A DNA stretch of 64,000 nt from Spongilla lacustris (Eukaryota; Porifera; Demospongiae; Spongillida; Spongillidae). The DNA lies in contig OX442437.1 of assembly GCA_949361645.1 (NCBI GenBank), positions 5,102,026 through 5,166,025 of the forward strand, written 5' to 3'. The notes beneath the pieces are model-generated. The model was not told the origin of the DNA and made no database searches. It was given only the letters and a program-made list of their open reading frames with translations. Shown here piece after piece: positions 39,820 to 48,930 of this stretch. Numbering within the stretch: the stretch's first letter is position 1; every line of letters starts with the position of its first letter. Made by a program: the position numbers and the translations under genes.

Positions 39820-40605
39820 AGTATAATACGTTTTTGTTCGGTCTGCATGCGTAAAATGATTTTAACAACCCGTAGATTGTTTAGTCTGGCGTAGCCGCAC
39901 CCTTGCGTATCCACACCCTTGCCGGCGTATCCACATAGGGTCTGGGGAAATGCCTATACACAACTTGTTCTAATGCACGGTTGTTCGGAGTTGGAAACTA
40001 GGTTGCGTATTAAGAACAATCGCAGTCGTTTTATCGTACCTTTTCAGAGGTCTATTTCTTACTGTATTAACAGTTTAACACTCTTATTAAAAACTAAATC
40101 ATGGCCAGAAATGGAGGACATGAGTGAATATGTAAGGTTGTGATAGAGATTTGAGAATTCTGATTTCACAAATAAATTTGTCACCTTTTTAAATGATTTA
40201 TCATGTTTCAGGACGAAATTATTAATTCAAGTCAATTAACTAAAATTAATTCTTTCAAATTGAATTCCAAATACATTCAGTATTCGCTAAAAATCGGTCT
40301 GATTATAATATATGTGTATCATGAAAAGAACATTAAGCATCCATTAACTAAATTCAAGACAAATTGATCAATTATAACTGAGCATAATTAATTAATTCAT
40401 AAACGTATGTCATTACGTGATACCGTGCGTCATATTGATGTGCCGTCTGCTCACGAGACTTCTATCACAGGCGAATTGGGAAGGGGGGGGGGGCACCGGT
40501 GAGGGTGTGGCAAGGGGTGGGGCAAAGTAGTAGATGGGGCCGCCCCGGGGAGGGTGCGGGTGGGGGTCTGGGGCGGAGCCCGAGAAGCCAACGCTTTTTG
40601 CGTAG

Positions 40606-40639
<34 letters not shown>

Positions 40640-40696
40640 CCAAAAAAAAAAAAAAAACTTAAAGTACGTAAAAGCTGAACTAAAAATGTAAGTACA
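39820..40696. other. Intron or intergenic DNA with GC-rich hairpin end
   Basis: Mostly AT-rich. 40480-40640 is GC-rich with poly-G, a GGGTCTGGGGCGGAGCCC hairpin (one member of the recurrent module) and a poly-C run of about 30. Confidence 0.6.
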
Positions 40697-40984
40697 GATC
40701 GAGGCACCGAATAGAAGTTAGCCTCACATTCCTCAGCCTCACATTCCAGCGGTTAGATCGTTATTTTGATAATGACCGGCCATTATCTAGTTATGAATAA
40801 AATTGAGGTTCTTTTTGCAGAAACCAACTAAAATAACATCTTTTTATTTTAAAAAGTAACAAATTCTAGACATAGCGATCCATCGAGCGTTTATGTTCAT
40901 GTATACCTCCGAATTGCAATTTGGATATCACACATTTTCTACCTTCATGTCTTACATATGCAAAATCACCACAACAACGCTGAC

Positions 40985-41960
40985 TATCTACATCCAGGAA
41001 GGGGTGTGGTTAAAACCAGTGGTACCCTGAAGTAGGGTAAGCACCCTTGTGTACCGCTGGTGTATAGCCTCACATGGATATGCACGTGGTTCATCACTAC
41101 AGCCATCACCACAAGATGGCTGCCTATCTTACTTCAGGAAGGGGTGTGGTCAAAACCAGTGGTACCCTGAAGTAGGGTAAACACATTTGTGTACTGCTGG
41201 TATATAGCCTCACATGGATATGCACGTGGTTCATCACTACAGCCATCACCACAAGATAGCTGCTTATCTAACTCCAGGAAGGGGTGTAGTCAAAACCAGT
41301 GGTACCCTGAAGTAGGGTAAGCCTCACATGGATATGCACGTGGTTCATCACTACAGCCATCACCACAAGATGGCTGCCTATCTTACTTCAGGAAGGGGTG
41401 TGGTCAAAACCAGTGGTACCCTGAAGTAGGGTAAACACATTTGTGTACTGCTGGTGTATAGCCTCACATGGATATGCACGTGGTTCATCACTACAGCCAT
41501 CACCACAATGTAGCTGCTTATCTGACTCCAGGAAGGGGTGTGGTCAAAACTAGTGGTACCCTGAAGTAGGGTAAGCAAGCACACCTGTGCACTGCTGGTG
41601 TATAGCCTCACATGGATATGCACGTGGTTCATCACTACAGCCATGCCAACACCTTAGTTTTAAGAAATAACCACAAGATAGCTGCCTATCTTACTTCAGG
41701 AAGGGGTGTGGTCAAAACTAGTGGTACCCTGAAGTAGAGTAAGCACCTTTACCTTACATGGCTATGAATGTTGTTCATCACTGCAGCTATACCCGCACCT
41801 TAGATTCTTTAATATCACCATGCACATGATGGCTGATTATTTTATGTCAGGAAGGGGTGTGGTCAAAACCAGTGGTACCCTGAAGTAGAGTAAGCACACC
41901 TGTGTACTGCTGGTGTATAGCCTCACATGGATATGCATATAGTTCATGACTACAGCCATC
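40985..41960. repeat. Left subterminal satellite array
   Basis: About seven monomers of 140-165 bp containing GTGGTACCCTGAAGTAGGGT and TAGCCTCACATGGATATGCA. This is the reverse complement of the array at 45604-47392. Monomers are more diverged here, and some carry extra AT-rich inserts. Confidence 0.93.
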
Positions 41961-42761
41961 TCCTCACCTTGGCTATAATGGTTGTTTTACATGGTATTGA
42001 TACACGTAAGCATTGTAACAATGAAGTGATTGAATTGTTTCTTGGAACTGTAATGCGAAGTTACACAATATGTGACTGCAAAACGTTTGGATTTGCATTG
42101 TGAAAATGGAGTACTTCCTGTGATATAAGACAGCAGCACAGATGGCATATAATATACAGTTATACAGTTAATGGGGTAACTTGTGTCCGAGAAAACATTC
42201 AACAGCTTGCTGATGATCCACTGCATATTTCTTCATCATGAGAGTAGTGATAATCTGCATGACGGTGTGGTTATTGAGGGGAAATACATGTAGAATTTAT
42301 TTACCTCAGGCCAAACAATAAATTTATTTATAAGTGTAGTGCATATAATGCCTGTTGATTTAACATCACTTTCCAGCTCTTGCAGGTAACGAAATATCTC
42401 AAAAACCTGTAGTATAGATATAATGTTTAAATGCCTACAGGTATAAAAATGGGTTGAGGTACCATATCATAGCAGTGATGTAAGGCCAGCCTCAATCCGT
42501 CTTGGTGATTTTTTCCACAATTTTGATTTTCTAGTGATAGTCTGGTTAACTGCTTTCCTTCTAAAATGTTCCTTATCATGGGCTGAAATGCATTCACAGG
42601 GTATGACCTAAACTACCAAATCATGATCATGAAATGCTTATTACTTCCATAGCTTTCACTTCTCTTCTTATAAATTCTCTTGAAAAAGGACACTTATTAT
42701 CTCTAAAAGAAATTGTTTGACCAATGTTACAACTTAACATCTAAATTGATCATGCCTTAAC

Positions 42762-45700
42762 TCACGTGTACAAGCATCTACTAAGAGAAGGAAAATGTCT
42801 AATGTAATGGTCTTTCCCCCATTGTAGGCCACATATGTCATCTGGATCTGGTTGATTCTTATAATCCGGAATTAGAAATTGTGATTCAGTCTGGTTCTGT
42901 ACATCGTTGGTTGGGCTGCTGGTTTCAGATATAATACTACTACTGCTACTGATATCAATGTGTTCACTATCACTAGTACTGTGGTCATTGCTCTCGGACT
43001 CATCACTATATGCAGAATTTTGGTCTTGTTTTCTGACATCATTTTGGTAGCTGTCCATGCTGTTGCTGGACTGATACATTACCATGTCTGATATACACAA
43101 TATTATATGAATCATGGAAGCACATACCTTCTCATCTGCACCACCTTGCAAAGGGTATAGACTGCCTTTAGATAGTTCATACACCATTTGTAACCTAAAC
43201 TTGGTTACTGATTCCTTTGATTCAGAATTACATATCTTATACTGTTATCATAGCATATGCATGAAACTTTACCCGTGTATGAAAACAAGGTAACCCCTCT
43301 GCCAGTTGCCGTGCTGCCTATGTGGTATATGCATGTTTAAACCAAAATTGATTTATACATGTATATATGCACTTACAAAACACACAAATGCTCCACAATC
43401 ATTTGCATTTTTCTGAGTTGGGGCATCATTCTAGCAAAGGCAGTAATCCATATCAGGTGTAGTGTTAAATTGTATGTACACATTTACTGAATCATGATAT
43501 TTCCATTCACAAGATGAAATTTGTTGACTGGATTGATTGTAGCTTTTGCTACACAGATACGTGTTAATGGTGTATCCATGCACAACATATACTATCTTGC
43601 CATATCCAGTTCACTTCATCTACATTGGAGAAGTGCAAAGAGTCAATGCAGAGTATGAATATTAATTTAGGATAAACAACCTGTATATTACAATAATAAC
43701 ATTTGAAAAAACTCATTGTGTGACAACTAACCACTAAACTCCAATGTTTTGGTTTGTGTACTGGAAAAAGCATGATTTCCTGCTCAAAAATATTGCATCC
43801 CTTTTTAAAAATAAATTGCTTTACATTATATAATCATACCACTGATACAGTTTGTACAATGATACCTTGGTGTAATGTTTGATGCTCTGATATCCTCTAC
43901 TGAGAAAAGTTGGAAGAAAAGTAGGATCAAAGGAGATCACCTTTTGTATATCCTAAATGTCATAAATAAAAGATCATACAAATAACCGGCACAACTACGG
44001 ACGGAATTACTGTTACTGTGGAAGTTTTCAAAAGCTCCATATGTGCTGCAATGATCTGGAAAAAAAAAAGGATTAATGATTAGTAAGTATATATATTTCG
44101 TACTGTTGAATTAATCCATGAATCAGAAACTAGAAGGCTTAAATCACTTCTGTCTAACTGAAATCCTGAGTGTGGATCAGGAATACTCTGGCTGAGCTAT
44201 GATATAAGCATAGAAATTATATCAGTACCACAATAAACAGTTGGCATTTATTTACCTTTGACTGTTCGTGCAGTGGCAAGCCTTTGTATTTTTGCATGTA
44301 ACATATAGTTTTCAATTTCAAAAATACAAACATATCGATTATGTTTACAAATTTGTGACTGGGAGTCATGAATTCTTCAATTGATGTGGCATTATTCAGA
44401 AGTGGCTAATGACATTATGCAGCAGTATGAATGTATTAATATACATATCCCTTATACTTACAAAAACTTCATTGGTGATGTATATACTGCAAGACAAACA
44501 TTTTCCTACATTGTTGCATGGATTATGCAAGCCATTTTAAATATGAAACAAAATTTATACCTTTATTTCATTGGATGAAGTGAATTGCGTTGATAAAACT
44601 TCGAATACCTTTGAATCATTGTAATGAATCCACTTGTTATGGCTCTGTACATAACAGGTATCTGCAACACAATTGTATAAAACATAACATTCGAACAAGT
44701 ACAAACGTATTACAGTGACCTTGATAGGAGTCATCGCCATGATGTACCTATATATACATGATGTACCTAAATACACATGAGTGTGTGCATACCACGACTG
44801 CGCTAAGTTGGTATTCAGTGTTTCCTTGCTGACTCTTATGCGATAGTGAAATTTTACACTTAATTAAAATGGTGTTAGGATACAAATAATAAAACACCTT
44901 GGAATTGTAATTCTGCTCTTAATTTTTCGTGCAAGGCCATCATCTGACACCCTGTCACAATGTATAATCAGAATCGAGGGTGTCTGACTGAACTTCAGAA
45001 CTTCAGTTTTTTGCACAATCAGTCGATTCAGACACACTCTGCAGAAACTGCAAATGACACTGCTCTATATTCTGTGTGTATTAAAACACCTGCTTACACT
45101 TTAGACAACTGCATGTGATATGGTGTTGTTTTTGCATCAAGGAAGCTCATCAGCAGATGATATATGCTTCTTTCTTCACAACTCTCCCTAACTCCACATG
45201 TAAGTAATGTCCATGATTCCGTTTCATTTACATTCCTTTACAAAAGAGTGTAACCATACGGTAAAATGCACAAACTTGAACTTATTATCACCTATAAAAA
45301 TACTAATAAAAATAATAAAACACTTCTGAATGGATGTATGACGCTTAGCACATGTGGCAGCTGTAAAAAGATGAAATGTAAATGCATCATGGTTAAAAAA
45401 CCACAGCACTGCACTTCATGTAACATAACAACAACAATTCACTGAGTTCATTGAATGTACATGGTTGTATTCATAATATATATAATTACATAAATAAATA
45501 ACTGAGTTCATTTACAATCTGCAAGAATGCCATCATAACCTAGAACGAACGGATGGATTTAATGACACACAACATGCATAGCTAAGTGAGCAGTACACAT
45601 GTATGCTTACCCTACTTCAGGGTACCACTGGTTTTGACCACACCCCTTCCTGGAGTTAGATAGGCAGCCATCTTGTGGTGATGGCTGTAGTGATGAACCA

Positions 45701-47590
45701 CGTGCATATCCATGTGAGGCTATACACTTGCAGTACACAGGTGTGCTTATCCTACTTCAGGGTACCACTGGTTTTGACCACACCCCATCCTGGAGTTAGA
45801 TAGGCAGCCATCTTGTGGTGATGGCTGTAGTGATGAACCACGTGCATATCCATGTGAGGCTATACACCAGCATTACACAAGTGTGTTTACCCTACTTCAG
45901 GGTACCACTGGTTTTGACCACACCCCTTCCTGGAGTTAGATAGGCAGCCATCTTGTGGTGATTTTTAAAATCTTAGGTGTCGGCATGGCTGTAGTGATGA
46001 ACCACGTGCATATCCATGTGAGGCTATACACCAGCAGTACACAAGTGTGCCTACCCTACTTCAGGGTACCACTGGTTTTGACCACACCCCATCCTGGAGT
46101 TAGATAGGCAGCCATCTTGTGGTGATGGCTGTAGTGATGAACCACGTGCATATCCATGTGAGGCTATACACCAGCAGTACACAAGTGTGTTTACCCTACT
46201 TCAGGGTACCACTGGTTTTGACCACACCCCATCCTGGAGTTAGATAGGCAGCCATCTTGTGGTGATGGCTGTAGTGATGAACCACGTGCATATCCATGTG
46301 AGGCTATATACCAGCAGTACACAGGTGTGCTTACCCTACTTCAGGGTACCACTGGTTTTGACCACACCCCTTCCTGGAGTTAGATAGGCAGCCATCTTGT
46401 GGTGATTTTTAAAATCTTAGGTGTCGGTATGGCTGTAGTGATGAACCACGTGCATATCCATGTGTGGCTATACACCAGCAATGCACAGGTGTGCTTACCC
46501 TACTTCAGGGTACCACTGGTTTTGACCACACCCCTTCCTGGAGTTAGATAGGCAGCCATCTTGTGGTGATGGCTGTAGTGATGAACCACGTGCATATCCA
46601 TGTGAGGCTATACACCAGCAGTACACAGGTGTGCTTACCCTACTTCAGGGTACCACTGGTTTTGACCACACCCCTTCCTGGAGTTAGATAGGCAGCCATC
46701 TTGTGGTGAGTTTTAAAATCTTAGGTGTCGGTATGGCTGTAGTGATGAACCACGTGCATATCCATGTGAGGCTATACACCAGCAGTGCACAGGTGTGCTT
46801 ACCCTACTTCAGGGTACCACTGGTTTTGACCACACCCCTTCCTGGAGTTAGATAGGCAGCCATCTTGTGGTGATGGCTGTAGTGATGAACCACGTGCATA
46901 TCCATGTGAGGCTATACACCAGCAGTACACAGATGTGCTTACCCTACTTCAGGGTACCACTGGTTTTGACCACACCCCTTCCTGGAGTTAGATAGGCAGC
47001 CATCTTGTGGTGATTTTTAAAATCTTAGGTGTCGGTATAGCTGTAGTGATGAACCACATGCATATCCATGTGAGGCTATACACCAGCAGTGCACAGGTGT
47101 GCTTACCCTACTTCAGGGTACCACTGGTTTTGACCACACCCCTTCCTGGAGTTAGATAGGCAGCCATCTTGTGGTGATGGCTGTAGTGATGAACAACGTG
47201 CATATCCACGTGAGGCTATACACCAGCAGTACACAAGGGTGCTTGCCCTACTTCAGGGTACCGCTGGTTTTGACCACACCCCTTCCTGGTGTAAGATAGG
47301 CAGCCATCTTATCGTGTCGACGTGATGGCTATAGTGACGGACAAAATGCATATCCATGTGAGGCTATGCACCAGCAGTACACAGGTGTGCTTACCTTATC
47401 ATGTGTATCACTGTAGTTGGTTGCACCAGACCACTTCGTACCGGTCCACTTCGTCGAATTATAGCGTACCCGGTAGTATAGACTAAGCGTAGGGTTATTC
47501 AGCTCATGTAATTGTCGCGTACATCCAGTAGATGGCACTCCAAATCGAATGGGAAAAGGGCCAAGTCCTTCTTTGAAGGTTTTTGTCGAT
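42762..47590 (-). CDS. USP-Ulp1 fusion isopeptidase of the transposon
   Basis: Minus-strand exons in order: ~47590-47395 (5' end open), 45539-45516, 45360-45324, 45291-~45242, ~45187-45098, 45047-44898, 44832-44793, 44747-44714, 44661-44561, 44505-44462 (USP part), then 44358-44256, 44157-44104, 44055-43987, 43952-43866, 43800-43732, 43680-43624, 43548-43488, 43430-43377, 43317-43273, 43214-43128 and a tail ending 42762 (Ulp1 part). USP signs: IYHLLMSFLD, TPSILIIHCDR, HHGDDSYQGHYTCYVQ with the catalytic His, KWIHYNDSKV. Ulp1 signs: DSWINSTIIAAHMELL, FLSRGYQSIKHYTK, PVHKPKHWSLV (His), IDSLHF (Asp), PTQKNANDCGAFVCF (Gln and Cys). The tail is Ser/Asp-rich. All phases agree across the USP-to-Ulp1 junction. 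Unresolved: start codon, the USP Cys box, one join near 43600, and the tail acceptor. It should cleave ubiquitin-like or SUMO-like conjugates. Confidence 0.85.
45604..47392. repeat. Right subterminal satellite array
   Basis: About twelve monomers, alternating irregularly between ~140 bp and ~163 bp forms; the longer form has an extra TTTTTAAAATCTTAGGTGTC block. Each contains CCCTACTTCAGGGTACCACT with the short palindrome ACCCT-ACTTC-AGGGT. The array forms most of the first intron of the USP-Ulp1 gene. Confidence 0.95.
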
Positions 47591-47731
47591 CACAGCTCCT
47601 TGCGCTATCTTGGTAATGTAGGCTATATTATAGTGTATACCGCGCGCGCCGGTTATCGGCATGCTATTGATCTAACCGCTGGAATGTGAGGCTGAGGAAT
47701 GTGAGGCTAACTTCTATTCGGTGATCGAGGC

Positions 47732-48930
47732 TGGGGTGCGACAGATCAAGAGCTCAGCCGCTATATGTTCAATGCGCCGATGCATCGCCGTTGATAGCAC
47801 ATGTACTGAACTCACCGTTTATTTGTTTAGAAAATACTAGGTACCAGTAGGCTGTTTTTTATATGGTCACATATGCGTTAATTGTTTTATTTGCCTCCAC
47901 AGAAATATATGGGTTTATGCTCGGTTTTTGGTACTTTTCGATACGTTACACATGCTCTCGGGAGGGAAAACTGAATAACAAACGCTAAACGGCCGGCTAA
48001 TGTAACCAGAGATTGCCCGTACTTCTATTGTAAGAGCCAAATGCTATTACCATAATTAGGTCAAGCGATAAATCATATTCATACTTGGCCCTGACCATGT
48101 ACACCGGTATCATTACATGTACGTACGTAGACGTTCATGCATGTAGGCCATTTCTGCCGTATAGCTACGCTGTGCCTGCATATGTTCGCGTACACAACCA
48201 TGCATATACAGCAAATGTGTAATATATGATGCGTTGAAAATAGGAAGTCCATAGCAGTTGTGATTACAAGGAGATGTCCATTTATGATTTCTAAAATATA
48301 CAAAACTAATTTAGGAAAGCGTCATATCATGCCCACATACGAACAGCTACATGTAAAAAAAAACCCCTGAAATAACTCGAGCTTGTGTATGGTTGCTATA
48401 CATCATGAACTAGCTGAGATGCACAAAAGTACAGTGGTTAAGCCATGATTATCTGTTGGAATGCACCATTTTATCACGTTCATAGGCCAGTGGATGTTTG
48501 AAGGCAAACATTATGAACTCCTGCAGGCAACATCATGCAGAGCTCATTCAAAAACATGCATCTGTATACAGGAGTAACAAGAGAGACAATAGAGATAGGT
48601 CAAAAGTGCAGACAACCTATAGACCTTATTCACAGCATGGTCTAGCCAGAGAATCAATTCCTGAACTGCTTTCACATTGATCAGCTGAATTAAGTCAGGA
48701 TGAGGTGGATACATGCATGTGGTACACGTGAAGTCCACTACATGATCCATTTTATCACACCCATTTAAAGTTCATAGGCCCGTGTATGTTTGAAGGCAAG
48801 CATTATGAACTCTTGCAGGCAACATCATGCAGAGCTCATTCAAAACATTGCAGCTCATATAGTAAACAACATTGCAGTATATACATGTACTGACGTGTAT
48901 TCATGGTAACTACATTGGGCATGAGTCTGG
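47732..48930. other. Unique DNA between transposons
   Basis: No exon recognised. A direct repeat of about 80 bases occurs at 48485-48560 and 48770-48850 (both contain TGAAGGCAA, TGCAGGCAACATCATGCAGA). Confidence 0.55.

Follow-up and report, generated by a model that had tools for sequence, protein, structure and literature searches.

What kind of element occupies positions 40697 to 47731 of the analysed window, a 64,000-nucleotide stretch of the Spongilla lacustris genome, and what does the protease inside it do there? The preliminary description had read this segment as a transposon with perfect ends in which a protease is the only visible gene, and had named Mutator, KDZ/Zisupton or a new group as its possible class. 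With a probability of roughly four in five, we place it in a Mutator/Rehavkus-type family of cut-and-paste transposons, as a non-autonomous copy derived by internal deletion.

The two terminal inverted repeats (TIRs) lie at 40706..40759 (+ strand; in the direction of the gene, this is the element's 3' end) and 47669..47722 (- strand). Each is the exact reverse complement of the other throughout its 54 bp, and the nonamer GATCGAGGC flanks the element on both sides (40697..40705 and 47723..47731). Within the window the outer 27 bases of the TIR occurred twice with up to three mismatches allowed, against an expectation of 0.00. About 31 genomic loci matched the TIR end region, part of them incompletely, and 12 end pairs were read; this set is without C1c and C16 (left TIR not recognisable), C2 (right TIR not recognisable) and the remaining TIR-matching loci, which stayed unpaired, and for C12 the ends come from two end loci rather than from one whole copy. 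Perfect 9-bp target-site duplications (TSDs), differing between copies, flanked 9 of the 12 pairs, and the length was 9 bp in all nine. The ten paralogous empty sites that were fetched each held a single nonamer, in nine cases exactly GATCGAGGC. Because other copies and empty sites exist, a chance origin of this arrangement is excluded. Terminal inverted repeats, a target duplication of fixed length and precise empty sites, as expected of cut-and-paste transposition, were all found, and the earlier view of a mobile element with identical ends and a Mutator-like 9-bp duplication was borne out. It also withstood the refutation proposed with it, which would have been an end repeat without other flanked copies, or empty sites that do not restore a single GATCGAGGC.

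The preliminary description also placed a satellite of about 150 bp in opposite orientation inside each end, and we indeed observed it in both arms, with units of 140 and 164 bp. The left arm (~40965..41930, + strand) consists of ~140-bp units and contains six exact copies of the motif AGCCTCACAT, all on the + strand, while the right arm (~45589..47395, - strand, the 5' end of the element) consists of 140/164-bp units and contains ten, all on the - strand. Inverted satellite pairs were 90-96% complementary among the longest 25 of 82. The motif AGCCTCACAT is found twice in each TIR and once in most satellite monomers, always in the same orientation relative to its own end. Among the satellite matches listed (40 of 132 candidates scored), all lay within loci of the TIR search except two, at C1 near 10.026 Mb and at C22 near 5.17 Mb, so that, on this sample, satellite arrays free of the element may exist. 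The C22 locus near 5.17 Mb also carries a C19 exon.

Long inverted ends filled with tandem repeats are likewise known from foldback-type elements (FB/NOF, Tetris and Galileo), and the satellites could have arisen by convergence in an element of another superfamily. According to the accessible parts of the literature, the TIRs of Tetris contain tandem repeats of ~220 bp and its TSDs measure 8-10 bp, and the internally repetitive TIRs of Galileo hold extra transposase-binding sites; the described copies of Tetris, however, are without a transposase gene, and Galileo is classed with the P elements. We regard a foldback-type origin as very unlikely.

The gene remnants inside the element lie on the - strand. 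They comprise a conserved C-terminal tail (FLIPDY..., 42765..42878), common to the Ephydatia relatives P0014 and P0048; a C48 (Ulp1/SENP-like) peptidase remnant (43377..43767) with the motifs HKPKHW, IDSLHF and QKNANDCG; C19 (USP) peptidase remnant exons (44606..44980, with the NKWIHYND exon at 44606-44665 and the PSILIIHC exon at 44900-44980); and a fragment of the first C19 exon (45317..45415) from which the Cys box SNLCWLN is gone. Two internal deletion junctions on the - strand were located by comparison with copy C7: the main one at 45416..45427, where ~4.3 kb are missing, and a second one at 45298..45313, where ~335 bp are missing. The ~4.3-kb deletion removed the N-terminal exon, the PHD finger, the transposase and the start of C19, and the window copy is without the C19 catalytic cysteine. 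Both isopeptidase domains claimed before can be recognised, but as remnants only. The window element is a shortened, non-autonomous internal-deletion derivative of longer family copies, consistent with the former suggestion of a protease-bearing non-autonomous element.

A second copy with the window-type deletion was present at another site with a different target duplication, and the interiors of the two deletion copies were 99.24% identical. The perfect ends had been taken as evidence of recent activity; on their own they do not demonstrate it: both TIRs were exact in 7 of the 12 pairs (one base apart in four and three bases apart in one) while the compared interiors differed by 0.7-3.6%, measured over a shortened region and without the partial copies C6 and C13a. 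The close agreement between the interiors of the two deletion copies points to recent spread more reliably.

The preliminary description proposed to look for longer, transposase-bearing copies, and the same genome has them. At 11-15 kb, they carry the exons of a PHD finger, a DDE transposase, C19 and C48 one after another on a single strand. The PHD exon of C7 precedes the transposase exon, with which it shares a strand, and scored 38.8 bits against Pfam as a single exon and 41.6 bits joined; it was also found in C2, C10 and C1b, but in none of the seven relatives scanned. One of five splice models supports the joining of the PHD exon to the transposase, which we infer for the family. The splice models leave out the C19 Cys box. 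When the C7 exons were joined by hand, a UCH domain with Cys and His boxes was recovered at 71.9 bits over 4-237 (Pfam); single C7 exons stayed below the Pfam cut-off for C19, and the joined C19 exons had no match among PDB sequences at 0.001. C48 reached 23.3 bits in the hand-joined C7 exons (Pfam cut-off 20.7), and the relative P0048 matched SENP2 at 1.5e-20; the H, D, Q and C catalytic motifs of C48 are present, their residues being assigned by eye.

The transposase core had no match in Pfam, the transposase exon gave five weak matches among PDB sequences (best E 0.26), and all relatives bearing an organism name or an Ephydatia gene label came from the sponge Ephydatia muelleri. Folds were predicted for relatives, the first led by P0014 and the second by P0069, the latter chosen since its single frame covers all three candidate acids. 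The closest solved structure to the predicted catalytic region was ISCth4, with 8-13% sequence identity and low TM-scores, and a WRKY-like domain was predicted before the DDE domain. ISCth4 is bacterial, and its transposase belongs to the IS256 family; IS256 and WRKY/FLYWCH fingers are linked to MULEs, and a DNA-binding domain of the WRKY/FLYWCH type is typical of the Mutator superfamily. The predicted fold of the relatives is thus that of an IS256-like DDE transposase, as in Mutator elements.

These data bear on the KDZ/Zisupton alternative, an element with subterminal repeats and a protease cargo. The preliminary description had raised it on account of the subterminal repeats, and Zisupton likewise has a multi-exon gene and long proteins in the text available. 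The duplication, however, was 9 bp in all nine of the pairs that carry one and not 8 bp, the figure given for such elements in that description (for Zisupton, the consulted text reports no TSD in the species studied), and the predicted fold points to ISCth4. Among 42 sequences searched against Pfam with E up to 10, 13 families were listed, and no transposase model was among them, neither KDZ (PF18758) nor MULE; since both are equally missing, Pfam does not discriminate here. On duplication length and predicted fold, a KDZ/Zisupton origin is disfavoured and highly improbable.

The protease could instead be cargo that a Mutator element picked up from its host, irrelevant to transposition, as MULEs are prone to acquiring host gene fragments (PMC6446971, in the part available). 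In window-type copies the protease part showed no sign of constraint when exon and intron differences were counted, and the genome also has 20 divergent C19 matches, which may be host genes. In the longer copies, however, exons had fewer differences than introns (p 0.03-0.06, counted under mechanical exon rules), and transposase and C19 share a single reading frame in the divergent relatives P0069 and P0080 (34% and 22% identity, respectively, to the first sequence of the profile). The joining of transposase and C48 is based on a single Ephydatia gene model. Shared frames and exon conservation make independent cargo unlikely; the protease looks like an old integral component rather than a recent capture, and what had appeared as a gene of its own seems to be the C-terminal portion of the transposase gene, truncated in the window copy.

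Within the Mutator superfamily in the broad sense, which includes Rehavkus, the 9-bp duplication lies in the range of 8-11 bp (PMC6446971, Table 1, as far as accessible). Rehavkus is described with a 9-bp TSD, TIRs of 26-400 bp, a PHD finger and a minisatellite near the end, and this 2019 review states that only Repbase entries document it (PMC6446971, accessible part). Rehavkus-1_TC of Tribolium measures 9.5 kb, and its inverted termini contain a satellite of 164 bp (PMC10218199, accessible part). The present family has the 9-bp TSD, the 54-bp TIR, the 140/164-bp arrays in both inverted ends and the PHD finger encoded with the transposase, its splicing being inferred. By the published descriptions its anatomy fits Rehavkus, and the term 'new group' was therefore too strong. 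In contrast to the present family, the available descriptions of Rehavkus (e.g., Rehavkus-1_TC and Rehavkus-1_HR) mention neither a C19 nor a C48 peptidase, and give insect and annelid hosts, whereas the organism-named relatives found here are from Ephydatia muelleri. With MULEs the family shares the common 9-bp TSD and, by prediction from relatives, the ISCth4-like DDE fold, and the WRKY-like domain predicted before it may be a further likeness; it differs in its PHD finger, its satellite-filled ends, its pairing of the transposase with two isopeptidase domains of different kinds and the missing Pfam MULE match in the 42 sequences. ULP1 occurs in plant MULEs. An OTU domain is listed for one cnidarian MULE group (PMC6446971, Table 1, accessible part). 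Judged by titles and the beginnings of abstracts, outside subscription journals and Repbase, we recognised no transposon with a C19 or C19 plus C48 transposase, and a PHD finger, DDE transposase, C19 and C48 in one element family were not found described in the accessible text of the papers compared (PMC6446971, PMC13359780, PMC4079207, PMC9297572, PMC10218199, PMC4298943).

How might such an element move? A longer copy would have supplied the transposase in trans, and the predicted WRKY-like domain may bind AGCCTCACAT in the TIRs and the satellite monomers. As the motif recurs in both with constant orientation per end, the satellites could act as arrays of additional binding sites. The DDE domain would then cut at the element ends and attach these to the target at positions staggered by 9 bp. 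More speculatively, the PHD finger, which is close to the H3K4me3 readers PHF2, PHF8 and BPTF, might direct the complex to active chromatin, and C19 and C48 might free the transposase, or local silencing and repair proteins, of ubiquitin or SUMO. It is possible, though on balance doubtful, that these elements represent a Mutator-related class whose single transposase polyprotein includes a deubiquitinase and a SUMO protease, here with an H3K4me3-type PHD finger. Such a protein would steer itself to open chromatin and, at the ends of its own element, clear away ubiquitin/SUMO-based signals for silencing or repair. The transposon would in this way bring along its own counter-defence against silencing by the host, and the deubiquitinase part would be of old origin and shared by lineages that have diverged widely.

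The Spongilla genome provides a family with longer copies, mobilised deletion copies and exact empty sites, and the predicted fold links a Rehavkus-like family to ISCth4 and to WRKY domains. The motif AGCCTCACAT, repeated in the satellites, is a testable candidate for transposase binding. The C19-C48 part may let transposons counter ubiquitin- and SUMO-based control by the host.

The element occupies positions 40706-47722 (7017 bp). Each of its 54-bp ends is the exact reverse complement of the other, and GATCGAGGC stands on both flanks. Internal to either end there is a tandem array of 140/164-bp units, the left and right arrays running in opposite sense. The word AGCCTCACAT was counted 20 times in the 64-kb window, every time inside the element (expected count 0.12; as the word was chosen post hoc, this expectation is no test), two occurrences falling in each 54-bp end and a single one in the majority of satellite units. 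It lay on the plus strand at 8/8 occurrences in the left arm and on the minus strand at 12/12 in the right arm, an orientation rule kept in 12 of 14 loci compared, with one exception in copy C13b and nine in copy C16. Between an end and one satellite monomer the longest common word measured 11 bases, a length reached by 3 of 1000 shuffled ends. By their sequence, the satellite arms with AGCCTCACAT are read as arrays of candidate transposase-binding sites. Directly outside the left end, a run of about 35 C (40607-40641) is followed by an A run, and C or G runs were also seen in the flanks of copies C7 and C13b.

Searching the genome (248.6 Mb, 51 contigs) twice with the best 40 of 150 candidates scored each time, and grouping loci within 20 kb, we found end region matches at at least about 31 loci, part of them partial or diverged. 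The preliminary description had proposed a transposon, and other copies with different nonamer flanks were indeed present: perfect 9-bp duplications, no two the same, bounded 9 of the 12 end pairs read. These were GATCGAGGC, GCGCAATGT, CTGTCGCCC, GTCTAAAGG, GCCGCGGTT, AGCATAATT, AGGTTTTTC and CTAATGCAA in eight pairs and GAATGCGAA in C12, a pair read from two end loci; C10, C13a and C13b (3/12) had no 9-bp duplication. The target of the window copy is a dispersed repeat distinct from the element (about 40600-40705 and 47732-47870), and its joined flanks matched at least 40 places across the junction at 91-98% identity, the best 40 of 247 candidates being scored. All 10 empty sites fetched from the best 13 listed held one nonamer, exactly GATCGAGGC in nine and with one change in the tenth, and the proposed insertion thus survived the search for empty sites. 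Two empty paralogues of C1b, a longer copy, each had a single CTAATGCAA; the joined flanks of C5a, whose flank is itself repetitive, matched at least 40 places across the junction. The family is mobile.

Long retrotransposon-like reading frames were noticed between the ends of C13a (L023/L024) and C16 (L035/L036), and could represent either nested insertions or a chimeric pairing of ends (C13a being without target duplication). Satellite units also occurred at two loci absent from the TIR searches, C1:10026461-10027372 and C22:5172952-5174870 of the same genome (G000), the latter adjoining a C19 exon with two stops; both are perhaps decayed copies.

Longer copies with a transposase, for which the preliminary description had advised a search, were present on other chromosomes. 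Measuring 11.2 to about 15 kb, they have the same ends and satellites together with a multi-exon gene region, with putative transposase exons in C7, C2, C10, C3a and C1b. In C7 the order on one strand is N-terminal exon, PHD, transposase exons, C19, C48 and acidic tail. The PHD finger (PF00628, cut-off 24) scored 38.8 bits as a single exon and 41.6 joined; the main transposase exon is open for 431 codons and followed by further transposase exons. With exons joined by hand, the C19 peptidase (PF00443) reached 71.9 bits (cut-off 23.9) and the C48 peptidase (PF02902) 23.3 bits (cut-off 20.7); among single C7 exons compared with Pfam, C19 stayed under the cut-off though correctly ordered and C48 gave no match. 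Automatic splice models of the five copies disagreed, including the PHD exon in 1/5 and the C19 Cys-box stretch in 0/5; the latter was added by hand because it runs on in an open frame into the following exon and can be aligned to P0048, an Ephydatia relative. The full length of the main transposase exon was covered in C7, C2 and C10, and a portion of it in C3a and C1b; of these five copies, the PHD exon was found in C7, C2, C10 and C1b and not in C3a. The finger is closest to PHF2, BPTF and PHF8, and the residues Y, Y, M and W, which we take to be the H3K4me3 cage of PHF8, all recur when the finger is aligned with PHF2.

The window copy derives from a longer form by deletion. Compared to C7 it is missing about 4.3 kb, with the N-terminal exon, the PHD, the transposase and the C19 Cys box, and a further approximately 335 bp inside C19; none of DATGTIV, YCLCQQP, TSGTIEAW and SNLCWLN occurred on the minus strand anywhere in the window. 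C5a, on a different contig, carries the same deletion within a different duplication and is 99.24% identical to the window copy over 2372 interior sites. Between this deletion pair and the five longer copies, identity is 96.4-96.8%; among the longer copies themselves it is 98.85-99.32%.

The transposase exon had 46 relatives in one search, and a profile search gave 70 proteins, mostly the same set. Conserved motifs included DATGT, IDRS and a C..H motif, and a candidate third acid was picked by eye in TSGTIEAW (C7), SRIEKRF (P0069) and SIVEGW (P0080). Judged from these protein sequences, transposase and proteases seem to be linked. P0069 (929 aa, 34% identity to the profile's first sequence) and P0080 (946 aa, 22%) run from transposase into C19 in a single reading frame, with C19 above the cut-off in P0069 (32.4 bits) and under it in P0080 (16.3 bits, first 20 positions only). 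The gene model P0048 (1295 aa), without part of the transposase, has transposase, C19 (24.5 bits, barely over the cut-off) and C48 (68.2 bits, closest to SENP2/SENP1) in one protein. No PHD match was obtained in the seven relatives scanned (P0014, P0041, P0048, P0049, P0069, P0080 and P0083), evidence against a PHD shared by the whole group, although several of the models are partial. P0049 (Ephydatia Em0013g910a) fuses a class-C GPCR with parts of the transposase-C19 protein; this gene model may be an artefact of annotating across an insertion. The C19 Cys-box exon had 32 matches in the host genome, 12 at 78-100% identity from the window copy's family and 20 at 34-52% identity, with stops in 15 of the 20. 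These divergent matches, among them G000 C2:6402104, C24:1720367, C3:5465347, C17:5566416, C2:10089223 and 15 others, may be further, older C19-bearing transposon families or host genes.

The element agrees with every point described for Rehavkus in the parts consulted of the published accounts (PMC6446971; PMC10218199) and, matched by description alone, is most likely a Rehavkus, so we regard it as Rehavkus-like. For Rehavkus, PMC6446971 gives a 9-bp TSD, a TIR within 26-400 bp, a PHD finger and a minisatellite close to the end; PMC10218199 describes Rehavkus-1_TC as 9.5 kb long and bearing a satellite of 164 bp within its inverted termini. Those parts mention no isopeptidase, whereas this family has C19 and C48. 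One cnidarian MULE group carries an OTU domain (PMC6446971, Table 1), and the mere presence of a tag-removing enzyme in a MULE is therefore no novelty; among the titles and abstract starts of the papers searched, no description of two such enzymes with one transposase was found. What is said here of the element's activity, binding and targeting, and of the purpose of the proteases, we infer.

Exon and intron sites were counted in the 3' region, an exon being the vote of at least two of five splice models. Variable sites among the longer copies numbered 13/954 in exons and 31/1123 in introns (Fisher p = 0.032), fixed differences to the deletion pair 28/954 and 25/1123 (p = 0.33), and the contrast of variable and fixed sites gave p = 0.024. 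Two stricter exon rules yielded p = 0.033-0.039, 0.31-0.32 and 0.025-0.031, respectively, and the union of all splice models 0.060, 0.59 and 0.079. Small as these numbers are, and related as the copies are, the counts suggest mild constraint on the protease part of the longer copies and none on that of the deletion pair.
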